Shown piece after piece: positions 937-53,661 of a DNA stretch of 64,000 nucleotides. Below the pieces are notes generated by a model. The model was not told where the DNA came from. It made no database searches and was given only the letters and a program-made list of their open reading frames with translations. The stretch is from Candidatus Cloacimonadota bacterium (GTDB taxonomy: Bacteria; Cloacimonadota; Cloacimonadia; Cloacimonadales; TCS61). Each line of letters starts with the position of its first letter. Positions within the stretch are counted from its first letter, which is position 1. The DNA lies in assembly GCA_021736135.1 (NCBI GenBank), contig JAIPGO010000004.1:1-64000 (forward strand), read 5' to 3'. Position numbers and translations under genes: made by a program.

Positions 937-1186
937 TATACTTGAGTATCTGAATGTCGAAATTGAGGTTTAAAGATTCATGATAAGATCAACAAAAATC
1001 ATGAAGCACATTTACATCACTAAAGGTTGGTTATGTGCACCTTTTAAGGGCGTGGCGTGCATATATTAACGGCAATTTATTTATTTATAAAATTCTTTCA
1101 AAATATAATATTGGAGAAAAAATGGAAAAGAAGGTATCATGTTAAATTTATTTTGTGCAGTAGGATTTGATGAAGATATTCAGCCA

Positions 1187-1981
1187 GTAGAGTAGAGACA
1201 GGTTTCAAGTATTCTATTCACCTGTCCCCCTCATCAAACCGTGCATGCGGTTTTCCCGCCCACACCTTACCGACAAAGTTCGTTCCAAGCAGTCACAGTA
1301 TCATCAGCCGACCCTGCTTGAGAGGATTTATAGTCAGTAATACTCAACCAATCTCTCATAAGCATCCGGGCGAGCAAGCTTACAGTTTCGCTGACTCTTT
1401 CTATTTCCCGTTTGGCTTTGGAATATAACTTACGGTGAAAAGAACAAACTCTTTCTTCAGCCTTCATAGCTGATTTTGGTTTGTTTGTTAGATTTACATC
1501 AATCACAATGTTCTCCTTGTCTTGTAAATTTCTTTGAAGTAATGCCCCTTTGCTCCTGCTGCGTTGTGTTGCACAGCTATCATCACTACTACGAGCATCT
1601 CCGACTGCCTTTATGCCTGAGTTCCATTTCGTTTACACTTATAGGAAGCCATTAAGGTTGCCAACCTTAACATATAGGCTCTCTCACGTTCAGCATACCT
1701 CCTTTTGTAAACACGCCATCAGTCATAACTCCGACAGTATCTGATAGTGCACTTTTCTGTTTCTTCCAATTAGATTACAGGTTTCATCTTCTCTGACAGA
1801 CTCACCGATTGCAAGGTTTAACGAAGCTAAACCCGTTCGCTTGCGCTACGGCTTACTTACCGATTCAAAGAGCTTTGACTAATCCATTACCGGAATTAGC
1901 CATCTTTTTCACTTCCGGCTGAACAGAAAATTGACCGGACTGGACTTTCACCAACTGGAGGAACACCACTTCGTGACGCAC
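1187..1981 (-). mobile_element. Decayed group II intron with deleted reverse-transcriptase gene
   Basis: Read on the minus strand, the element starts at 1981 with GTGCGTCACGA, which fits the GUGYG start of bacterial group II introns. A domain I-like stretch follows (GTTCCTCCAGTTGGTGAAAGT near 1965-1945). Near the 3' end, a domain V-like hairpin around the GGGCGGGAAAACCGCATGCA block (about 1256-1235) is followed by a domain VI-like stem GACAGGT/ACCTGTC (about 1226-1197) and a terminal CTCTAC. The 3' boundary is either 1187 or 1192. The whole element is only about 0.8 kb against the usual 2-3 kb, because nearly all of the intron protein gene is gone. The 5' strand of domain V pairs poorly, so self-splicing is doubtful. 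Confidence 0.7.
1267..1506 (-). pseudogene. Remnant of group II intron-encoded reverse transcriptase (N-terminal end)
   Basis: This 79-codon frame lies inside the intron, where the intron-encoded protein normally begins. Residues 16-36 (KAEERVCSFHRKLYSKAKRE) match the N-terminal pattern of group II intron proteins (an xxQRKLYxKAKxE-type start). The expected continuation (RFYSLYDKVYR..., then the RT fingers and palm with YADD) is missing. About 40 unrelated codons follow and then the intron 3' structures. The simplest reading is an internal deletion of about 1.2-1.5 kb that removed the RT, maturase and endonuclease domains. The product should have no RT activity. Confidence 0.6.
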
Positions 1982-2059
1982 CAGAGCGCACAGGGAAAAA
2001 GATAATAATATGAAGAATTCGACTTTAAACAATAAAAAATTACACAACAAGAATAATGT

Positions 2060-2341
2060 TAGCTATTCTCTTTCTTCAAAACTCTGTGCCCTCTGTGCCT
2101 CTGTGGTAAAGATTCTTCTCTTATGTATTCCGAGTCACCAATCACGAATCACCAATCACGCTGAACGAAGTGAAGACCATTTTCGCACTTTCGCAATTTC
2201 ACCCCGTTTCCCTTCTCCCGCTTCCCTTCTCCCCTTCGCCCCTTCGTTTCCCTTCTCCCGTATTTCGAGTATCAGATCTCGTATCTCGTATTTCGATTTC
2301 CCGTCCACTGTTTACTATTCACTGTTCACTATTCACTACCC
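2060..2341. repeat. Low-complexity spacer of imperfect short repeats
   Basis: This stretch holds strings of near-identical short words: TCTGTGCCCTCTGTGCCTCT (about 2082-2101), repeats of ATCACGAATCACCA near 2137-2160, CTTCTCCCG/CCTTCTCCC repeats near 2210-2260, TCTCGTATCTCGTATTTCG near 2276-2296, and TTCACTATTCACT words near 2318-2338. Similar TTCACTGTTCACTATTC text recurs at about 8384-8402 and 21708-21725. Reading frames across it are low-complexity and I do not call them genes. Confidence 0.55.
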
Positions 2342-2608
2342 ATGCTCATAATCCTCAGTGATCTTCACTTTTCTGACGGTTCCACTTCTTCGAATGTGGT
2401 GAAGGAAGTTTTCTCGCAGGTTCTGTTTCCTGAAATCCTGCTTAGAGCCAATTCTGATCAAAGAAAAATTGAAGAAGTGCACCTGGTATTATCAGGTGAT
2501 ATCTTTGATATCGTACGCACGGATAAATGGCTGAAAATTGAGGAAGCTAAAAGACCATGGAATGGAGCTTTGGATCCCCAATATGGGTTAATAATGAACC
2601 TGAGGTAG
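2342..2608 (+). CDS. Calcineurin-like metallophosphoesterase, N-terminal fragment (frameshifted)
   Basis: This 88-codon frame holds the first two metal-binding motifs of the calcineurin-like phosphoesterase fold: D7-x-H9 in LSDLHF and G52-D53 in LSGDIFD. It runs into a stop at 2606-2608. The rest of the same protein continues in the -1 frame at about 2599 (next entry). Adding one C to the CC at about 2597-2598 would give a smooth join reading ...GLIMNPEVEIA... and restore a protein of about 442 residues. The frame is therefore probably broken by a one-base loss, either a sequencing/assembly error or a real mutation. The start ATG follows directly on the low-complexity spacer and no strong ribosome site is visible. 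Confidence 0.75.
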   Translation: MLIILSDLHFSDGSTSSNVVKEVFSQVLFPEILLRANSDQRKIEEVHLVLSGDIFDIVRTDKWLKIEEAKRPWNGALDPQYGLIMNLR

Positions 2609-3669
2609 AGATTGCCTGTAACCGGATTCTGGCGAATATTTTAGCTTTGCCTGCCTGTCAGGCATTTTTTGAGGAATTATTCATTCTCGCTGCTGCCATC
2701 CCGCACATTCCGGTAAAAGTGACATACGTAACCGGTAATCACGATAGAGCCATCAATAATTACGCTTCTCTGCAGCAAAGGATCAGGAAACAGTTTAAAA
2801 GCATTGACCTGAAAATATGCAATTACCTGCATCTGAATAAATATTCGCTATTATGCCGACATGGTCACGAATGGGATGATACCTGCTTTGGTTACGAATT
2901 TGCCAGGAAAGTGCTTGATCTTTCCATGAAGGGCAGATTTGACCCGGCATGTTATAAGGTGCAGAATATCGGGGAAGTTATAACTGCTGAAATTATGGGT
3001 GGCATTATTTACCGCCTGAATAACACTTTTCAATGGCAGGGCAGATATGATGAGCTTATCAATCACATTAAAGATATCAATAACGTCCGCCCTGCCCTTT
3101 CTGCTATCAATTGCCTGTTTTGGTCAACCTCGGAGGAATTTAATAATGAACAGAAAAATGATATTACAGAAGCTCTGTGGAAATCTCTGGAAGTCTTTCT
3201 GAATACGAGCCTGGCGCAGATGTGGATTAAGCTATATATTGATCTGCCTTTACCGGGAAAAATCAGTAAAAGTTTTCTGCTTTTAAATAATCTGCTGAAG
3301 GATGATAATTTTGATTCGCTTCATAAAGTATTAGAGATAATCAAAGCTGCCGGTAAATATTTTAAAACACCGGCGGATATTTATCTCAAGGGTGCTATGG
3401 CAGATTTTGCCAGATATCCGAAAGTGAGATTCGTTATTTATGGTCACACGCACCAGGCTAAAGACGTGATCATCGAAAATAAAAAAGAAAAAGGTTCATA
3501 TAGATACATCAACACCGGTACGTATCTTCCTCAGATCGAGGAAGCAAAAGTCAATGGTTTCGGTATTTCTAAAAGAATGACTATTACCTTTATATATAGC
3601 AAAAAAGAGAATGGCAGCTCTAAGGGGGAAATCTATATCGCTGGAATTCTGGAATTGTTTGAAAGATAG
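2557..3669 (+). CDS. Calcineurin-like metallophosphoesterase, C-terminal fragment (frameshifted)
   Basis: This frame carries the remaining phosphoesterase motifs: GNHD (about 2734-2745), a conserved histidine in CRHGHEW (about 2858-2878) and GHTH near 3441-3452. With the preceding fragment, all metal ligands of a dinuclear metallophosphoesterase are present. The long insert between the GNHD/GHEW part and GHTH is helical and typical of larger UDP-2,3-diacylglucosamine-hydrolase-like or predicted cytosolic phosphoesterases. The in-frame ATG at 2557 lies upstream of the break and is probably not a true start; homology should start near 2599. The substrate is unknown. No signal peptide is seen, so a cytoplasmic enzyme is likely if the gene is intact. 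Confidence 0.8.
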   Translation: MEWSFGSPIWVNNEPEVEIACNRILANILALPACQAFFEELFILAAAIPHIPVKVTYVTGNHDRAINNYASLQQRIRKQFKSIDLKICNYLHLNKYSLLCRHGHEWDDTCFGYEFARKVLDLSMKGRFDPACYKVQNIGEVITAEIMGGIIYRLNNTFQWQGRYDELINHIKDINNVRPALSAINCLFWSTSEEFNNEQKNDITEALWKSLEVFLNTSLAQMWIKLYIDLPLPGKISKSFLLLNNLLKDDNFDSLHKVLEIIKAAGKYFKTPADIYLKGAMADFARYPKVRFVIYGHTHQAKDVIIENKKEKGSYRYINTGTYLPQIEEAKVNGFGISKRMTITFIYSKKENGSSKGEIYIAGILELFER

Positions 3670-21386: not shown

Positions 21387-21896
21387 AATATACTCCTGGT
21401 ATTGTTTTTCCCCAAAATTATAATTTTACCTCATACGTGCCGGATTGATCCCTTAAACCCATATTGTGCTGTAGAAATTTGCGGATAGCAGCAATCTTTT
21501 AGTACAGAGAGAATTAGATAATTTTCATAAATATAAAAATAATATTCATAAAAATTCTCTAACTCTTCTGCACATAAAATTTAACTACTCTTCATCAAAT
21601 CATAATGCACAAAATGGGTTAAAAACCATCTATATTAAAAATCTCTTTTTCCCTTTTTTTATGTCAAGAAAATTCGTTGCAGTAATAAACTCTAAGACTT
21701 GAGACTGTTCACTATTATACTATTCATTTTAAAAACTTATACTGAATTAGATCAATAATATTGCACATATTAACTTTTCCCAGATTAATTTGACGCAAGT
21801 CAATGGCATTAATCAGCATTCTAAGCAGATATTGCTTTTGATTGTTTCATTCCCCGTAGGGGATATCTAATTGTAGACATGTTAACATCACCCAAT
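21387..21896. other. Spacer between the giant surface protein and repeat B1
   Basis: The sequence is AT-rich and I found no gene. A short hairpin word (TCCCCGTAGGGGATA) lies at about 21852-21866, and a TTCACTATTATACTATTC string near 21710 resembles the simple-repeat text at 2318-2338. Confidence 0.4.
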
Positions 21897-52940: not shown

Positions 52941-53661
52941 CAGAGGCTTTCTTAATACTTTTCTTTTTCCGTGCAGTTCGTGACGTCCGTGGTTGATAAT
53001 CTTCTTTTCTTTGGTTTCGGTTTAACCGAGTTAGACTTTACGGAGATATTCGGATAGTCACTTTTTTTTTAAGAAGCACCTCCACTCATCAAGGTCATAT
53101 GTAGTTCGCCAATGCAGTAGGTAAAGAATTGCTGGTATCGGTCAGGCAGCAGCTTGCACATCAGCGCTTCACTCCAGAACACAGACACAGTACGTCCTTT
53201 CGTGATTTATTTAATTAAATCCTGTTTGTATAGTAGGAGTTTACAAATAGGGGCAAGTTTCGACCACAGAGAAAGTTAGAAAATGAGAATAATATCAAAA
53301 ATATTCACTGATCATTTTCTAACTTCTCTGTAATCATCCCGATACATCGAGATTACCACTCTTTCACAATCCTATTGAACAAAAATGGGTTAAAAAAGGC
53401 GTGCTGCTGCACGCCACTTAAAGTTGAAGATAATCAATATTACATTTTACGATATTAACTAACAATTCGTTCACACATCGGGGTTTTCCCCGTCGTTATA
53501 TTTAAACCCGCAGGGGCTTATCTTTTCTGTTTCGATAACCAATATAGAAGTTAACCGGTAATTTTAATCTGACAAGTAATTTTTTCTTTGCTGTTAATTT
53601 GTCGAATTTCTTGTTTTTTGTGTTTAACATATTATAATATCTAAAAAAGCCTGGAGCATAG
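52941..53661. other. Gene-poor spacer with possible coding remnant and hairpin
   Basis: Around 53210-53077 on the minus strand, a short frame reads VFWSEALMCKLLPDRYQQFF and YCIGELHMTLMSGG, which looks protein-like but has no start or family I can name. At 53274-53331, CAGAGAAAGTTAGAAAATGA pairs with TCATTTTCTAACTTCTCTG. CATCGGGGTTTTCCCCG near 53479 is another small stem. No complete gene. Confidence 0.4.

Follow-up and report, generated by a model that had tools for sequence, protein, structure and literature searches.

Relic of an ORF-less group II intron, its domain V decayed, in a dispersed intergenic repeat of a Candidatus Cloacimonadota genome

The window analysed here, the first 64,000 nt of contig JAIPGO010000004.1 of a Candidatus Cloacimonadota bacterium (assembly of 148 contigs, 4.14 Mb), carries near its left end a 795-nt element over which no open reading frame exceeds 79 aa, the nearest long ORFs lying at 457-936 and 2557-3669 (Table 1). 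Its termini, GTGCG at 1981 and CTCTAC at 1187, fit the GUGYG / AY pattern and are the same in its kin. An initial annotation, made from the letters alone, had placed a shortened group II intron at exactly these coordinates, which proved correct; it gave no orientation, and the element reads on the minus strand. Domain I-like text, also proposed there, is borne out by the Rfam model RF02003, which scores 61.2 bits (E 5.5e-11) over 1957-1841 against a gathering score of 49. The proposed domain V/VI-like stems at the 3' end are likewise recovered by a covariance model, RF00029, whose alignment covers the letters of domain VI, although the match is weak (32.7 bits, E 2.1e-4) and under the gathering score of 40; one published survey accepted matches to this model above 24 bits (PMC8919778). 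The folding signal is unremarkable (z -0.57 for domain IV, -1.95 for the whole intron), and the six plasmid records with short matches to the intron match it only in domain V. The 79-aa frame at 1267-1506 was considered as a gene and set aside, its best match (FAM167, E 0.093) falling short of the cut-off and the frame being an out-of-frame fusion across the deletion junction described below.

Table 1. Features of the intron locus and of its target repeat within the window
Feature	Positions	Strand	Basis or remark
Relic of a group II intron without its ORF, 795 nt, from GTGCG to CTCTAC	1187..1981	minus	Rfam matches and comparison with kin
Part of domain I, RF02003 (group-II-D1D4-4)	1841..1957	minus	61.2 bits
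RT N-terminus remnant	1404..1583	minus	query RT residues 1-27 and 10-63, split by a 1-nt deletion
Deletion junction, ~1120 nt of RT ORF absent	1403..1404	minus	alignment with relatives
RT C-terminus remnant, residues 433-466 with stops	1307..1408	minus	match overruns the junction by ~5 nt
Domains V and VI, RF00029	1187..1270	minus	32.7 bits, gathering score 40
Domain V, three changes (1265, 1264, 1260) that the genome's nine further family A 3' ends lack	1236..1268	minus	alignment
5' exon side of target repeat (CCCTGTGCGCTCTG)	1982..1995	minus	flank comparison
3' exon side of target repeat (TGGCTGAATATCTTC)	1172..1186	minus	flank comparison
Empty copy of target repeat	52979..53004	plus	pattern search
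More divergent empty copy of target repeat, ~100 bp from the intron, outside the 47 sites	2082..2118	plus	

What the element has lost becomes apparent from a relative, L034 of genome G029 (1914 nt), which aligns to intron positions 1-578 (91% identity) and 579-795 (84%) around a 1120-nt gap. L034 holds an open 496-aa ORF with RVT_1 and GIIM domains and a TIGR04416 match at 397.7 bits, for which the domain search listed no endonuclease domain; this RT is a 100% match to that of L103 of Candidatus Tenebribacter davisii, at the same coordinates, and G029 is accordingly regarded as that genome. Measured against L034, the window intron is ORF-less: the RT ORF is deleted and the flanking RNA domains are kept. 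The exact place of the junction is ambiguous by a few nucleotides because both edges carry GAA/GAAA. Both ends of the RT survive as stubs, of which the initial annotation had recognised one, an RT cut to its first ~35 codons, and some 34 codons indeed run from a GTG at 1506 to the junction. If the count begins at 1583, the first position that matches the intact RT, the N-terminal stub comes to ~60 codons with a frameshift inside, and the mechanical ORFs of L034, L037 and L071 begin ~24 to 57 codons upstream of the point at which the window's GTG stands. The C-terminal stub of ~34 codons had gone unmentioned. The comparison supports the earlier interpretation: an internal deletion has reduced a group II intron that once carried an RT to the present remnant, whose domain V is decayed.

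Matches to the intron were found in at least 15 of 59 genomes (its own and relatives, with up to 8 candidates scored per genome), and one of them, L035 in another genus of the family (G019), has a junction identical to that of the window copy. Searched with up to 3 mismatches, the junction pattern occurs in 2 of the 106 genomes of the order, these two. The 3' flanks of the two copies differ, placing the same deletion at more than one site; L035 is without its first 215 nt, and its 5' insertion site is thus not visible. By eye, the text at this 5' loss resembles an IS21-type remnant. Left of the junction, both copies have a 1-nt deletion that is missing from the six other sequences readable there (F34, F71, F37, L036, L105 and L107; L106 is unreadable at this place), among which F37 and L105, separated by a zero branch in the tree, are probably one intron. 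To the right of the junction, the window copy and L035 have 8 private shared states within the first 100 columns, compared with 3 for the next best pair among six sequences. Beyond these columns the excess disappears, with 1 such state for this pair and up to 3 for others. A tree of the right side joins the two copies with a support of only 70/88, and a tree of the left side places the window copy with copies of its own genome (88/88), not with L035. Since the two trees disagree, a single origin requires later recombination, and we read the pattern as one ORF-less ancestor followed by such an exchange, with parallel deletion as the rival: the two copies probably descend from an ancestor that moved in trans. 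The earlier suggestion that such introns can be mobilised by a full-length relative thus finds support for the lineage, with the same junction at another site in another genus and the window copy in a target repeat, and stops short of the window copy itself.

Other ORF-less forms occur within the order. L068 (G031) has lost its RT within a few nucleotides of the window junction, on a divergent background, and the 3' ends of L141 (G006) and L150 (G103), both at contig ends, are 98% like its own. Three ORF-less copies in G040 (L064, L065 and L066), each cut at the 5' side by a contig end, have one common deletion with a left edge near that of the window and a different right edge; their 3' flanks differ from one another, and an RT search of that genome gave, besides the stubs, a single match of 36% identity. 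L067 (G022) represents another RT deletion, and the family RT as query found no related RT in G022. L147 (G004), considered as a further ORF-less copy, is a 5'-truncated copy instead. Within this one order the RT has been deleted in at least three different ways, of which one is seen in three copies of a single genome and one in two genera; introns with and without an RT can therefore be compared as natural pairs in this clade. Going by the T. elongatus case discussed below, we would guess that the part of domain IV needed for RT binding may end at this repeatedly found left edge. The nearness of the L068 deletion site and of the G040 left edge to that of the window also makes parallel deletion possible, so that a full-length intron might have inserted at 1187/1981 and lost its RT later, in place, the G019 junction being a separate event promoted by the short similarity between the edges. 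Such a course agrees with the grouping of the window copy with its own-genome copies left of the junction, with GAA/GAAA on both edges and with the nearly coincident loss in the divergent L068, but it is at odds with the identical junction, the common 1-nt deletion and the 8 private states to the right, and we consider it unlikely.

A DNA search of the window's own genome with the intron as query returned at least 35 matches (best 40 of 68 candidates scored). They include at least 8 other 5' ends and at least 9 other 3' ends of what we call family A, all 17 of them within 3 bases of a contig end, as expected for a multi-copy element collapsed in assembly; the window copy, which is 86-92% identical to the other 5' ends and 82-87% identical to the other 3' ends, is the only copy of this family to be assembled over its whole length. 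Three 5' ends and two 3' ends represent a second family, B; what remains of the matches consists of degenerate fragments (L021, L024/L030) and of copies of a 27-bp flank repeat. As to a full-length copy in the same genome, for which the initial annotation had advised a search, the assembly has 17 related ends and no RT of the family. With the family RT as query, the assembly yielded six matches and no helper RT of the intron family among them, namely the three window stubs, one C-terminal fragment that lies at an end of family B (contig C108) and two RTs of other kinds.

Two genes of this genome match RVT_1, one of them DGR-like and the other retron-like by eye. The first lies in L031 (G000:C130:7939-10700), of which positions 1-2574 resemble a diversity-generating retroelement, with a formylglycine-enzyme-like variable protein, a 112-aa Avd-like ORF and a 429-aa RT ORF whose 3' end bears template-repeat-like text, all judged by eye. 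The second, in L032 (G000:C100:1-2526), is a retron-like RT of 345 aa at 262-1299 on the minus strand, again judged by eye, with adjoining ORFs of 110 aa and more than 200 aa.

The window copy differs from its kin in domain V, whose 5' strand had been described as seemingly degraded. This is confirmed: the window copy has AAGGTGTGGGCGG in this strand, and the remaining nine 3' ends of family A in the genome have AAGCCGTGTGCGG. The change at 1265, C to G, falls on what we take to be the C of the catalytic AGC triad, which reads AGG in the window; the other two affect the neighbour of this C and one unpaired base. With 32.7 bits against the Rfam cut-off of 40 and AGG in place of AGC, the element is filed as a relic descended from group II introns and not as a working intron. 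RF00029 scores 52.5 bits in each of the nine other ends, and of at least 12 domain V matches in the genome, 11 lie at 51-52.5 bits. A survey that scored 88 of 228 candidates gave at least 50 domain V matches (E up to 0.001) in 16 of 40 genomes of the family; among the 50 listed, 46 are above the cut-off and the window copy has the second lowest score. The predicted fold of domain V has -13.3 kcal/mol in the window versus a comparison value of -18.6 kcal/mol. Four of the six other ORF-less copies have domain V scores of 45.2 (L035), 51.3 (L066), 44.5 (L067) and 46.1 bits (L068). L034 has the same ends as the window copy and flanks of the same repeat kind, and differs in its open RT and its domain V of 56.2 bits.

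Because of the three domain V changes, one of them in the catalytic triad, the window copy is probably splicing-dead, and it is probably immobile in its present state. It might instead have stayed active without its ORF, with a full-length relative in the same genome splicing it in trans, as recognisable domains I, V and VI and the other family ends of that genome would allow; the lost C of the triad and the lost pairing in the lower stem of domain V, beside 11 domain V matches in the same genome that keep their high scores, make this very unlikely.

Joined across the intron, the window flanks read CCCTGTGCGCTCTG^TGGCTGAATATCTTC, an unbroken copy of a repeat that we refer to as the target repeat. 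That the window copy is an assembly chimera, joining two ends of a collapsed multi-copy intron, is scarcely credible: the contig-end position of the 17 other family A ends is typical of a collapsed repeat, but the window copy is too far from those ends in identity, its junction recurs in a separate assembly (G019) and its flanks restore this repeat.

The joined site matches without mismatch the pattern TYYGTGGYTNAWNATYTTC, which occurs, with at most 1 mismatch, at 47 sites of the genome, the reversed pattern giving 0; it was adopted after a stricter one, two units at fixed spacing, had given 0 sites. A further repeat unit lies within 30 nt upstream in 22 of 29 sites aligned (30 of the 47 retrieved). 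At least one of the 47 (on contig C84) is the flank of an intron copy, L015, and a few resemble coding text by eye. Among family A flanks of this genome, the window included, TYYG stands on the 5' side in 9 of 9 and TGGY on the 3' side in 8 of 10; one exception, L015, is inserted into the repeat 9 nt further upstream. Outside this genome the rule is weaker: when the ends collected from every genome are pooled, whether of family A, B or another, TYYG is present in 18 of 25 5' flanks and TGGY in 12 of 26 3' flanks. Of the 25 5' ends, 16 that are family A-like were used to look for EBS1, and 15 of these finish in TYYG; the tentative candidate, TGGATT, pairs in 77% of cells, a value that CGGAAG equals. 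The pattern is found in 80 of the 106 genomes of the order, many of which hold few sites, at a level where the reversed control also reaches up to 4. The highest counts are 47 (the window's genome), 35 (G035), 24 (G019), 12 (G009) and 11 (G004). Neither G035 nor G009 had an intron among the matches listed in the 59-genome survey (up to 8 candidates each), indicating that the repeat exists without the intron.

ORF-less group II introns are already known, and the window copy is a further, decayed example. They have been called rare in bacteria (PMC4424553). The closest parallel is the TeI3 introns of Thermosynechococcus elongatus, of which one genome has 17 ORF-less copies with a domain IV ORF deletion, stubs of both RT ends and a change of one nucleotide that puts the remnant out of frame, and which RT-bearing relatives mobilise in trans, as shown by assay (PMC2882425). 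The present case differs in that the TeI4h RT has an endonuclease domain and the relative's RT has none detected, in that one junction spans two genera and in that the window domain V is damaged. Group IIC introns, which insert at terminators and attC sites (PMC4424553), are similar in having no endonuclease domain and in using a recurrent non-coding motif as target; the target here is a dispersed repeat of 9-nt units (about TCYGTGNNR). Literature searches combining group II introns with Cloacimonadota, Cloacimonetes or Tenebribacter returned nothing on the subject, and a search for introns in intergenic repeats gave none on such a target, judged by title among the best matches; intergenic heptamer repeats of other sequence have been described (PMC4679880, PMC4692102). 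What is new here is that, in its own genome, the family is inserted at the same point, TYYG / TGGY, within dispersed copies of an intergenic repeat, and we see this target as the part worth following.

On the whole we favour, as the probable account, an RT-deleted derivative that reached a dispersed repeat on a borrowed RT and then decayed to a dead relic. The starting point would have been a multi-copy group II intron with an RT/maturase without a detected endonuclease domain, from which an internal deletion of ~1120 nt removed the RT, while domains I, V and VI and the two borders of the RT region remained. Without its ORF, the intron may then have been spliced and reverse-spliced with the RT of a full-length relative and inserted into the repeat between TYYG and TGGY, a position that is observed directly and that would have been recognised through EBS/IBS pairing. 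Decay followed insertion, with domain V losing the triad's C, and very probably left a dead relic. Points against this account are that the assembly holds no RT of the family, that the two trees disagree, that L068 and the G040 copies have deletions close to the same place, and that the target rule is weaker in other genomes.

A bolder version, offered tentatively and as possible rather than probable, is that Cloacimonadota harbour a non-autonomous group II intron which arose through one RT deletion, spreads between sites and genera on a borrowed RT and lands, throughout the genome, on the dispersed intergenic repeat with its 9-nt units. If true, bacteria would have in it an equivalent of those parasitic retroelements that insert into safe havens, and such a target would explain how the intron multiplies without breaking genes.

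Several further repeats and sites were seen around these introns. The 27-bp repeat at 1150-1176 (TCTTCATCAAATCCTACTGCACAAAAT) recurs at at least 9 other places of the genome (4 perfect, 5 at 96%), with a degenerate copy at window position 21589; it was considered as part of the target and rejected, the four perfect copies examined adjoining no target repeat. Between 2060 and 2340 the window holds quasi-tandem 7- and 9-nt units (CTCTGTGCC, CCAATCACGAATCACC, TATCTCG, TTCACTATTCACTG), which form an intergenic array. Several flanks of family B (L019, L020, L022, L023 and L025) are other short-unit arrays (GTTAATC, GACGGGA), which hints at a different array target. The more distant introns L038, L040 and L050 have 5' exons such as AACAARCGTGTCAG, which in our view resemble integron attC sites. 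At 2342-3669, an 88-aa ORF (MLIILSDLHFSDG...) overlaps a 370-aa ORF in another frame, and by eye the two together resemble one frameshifted gene of phosphoesterase type.
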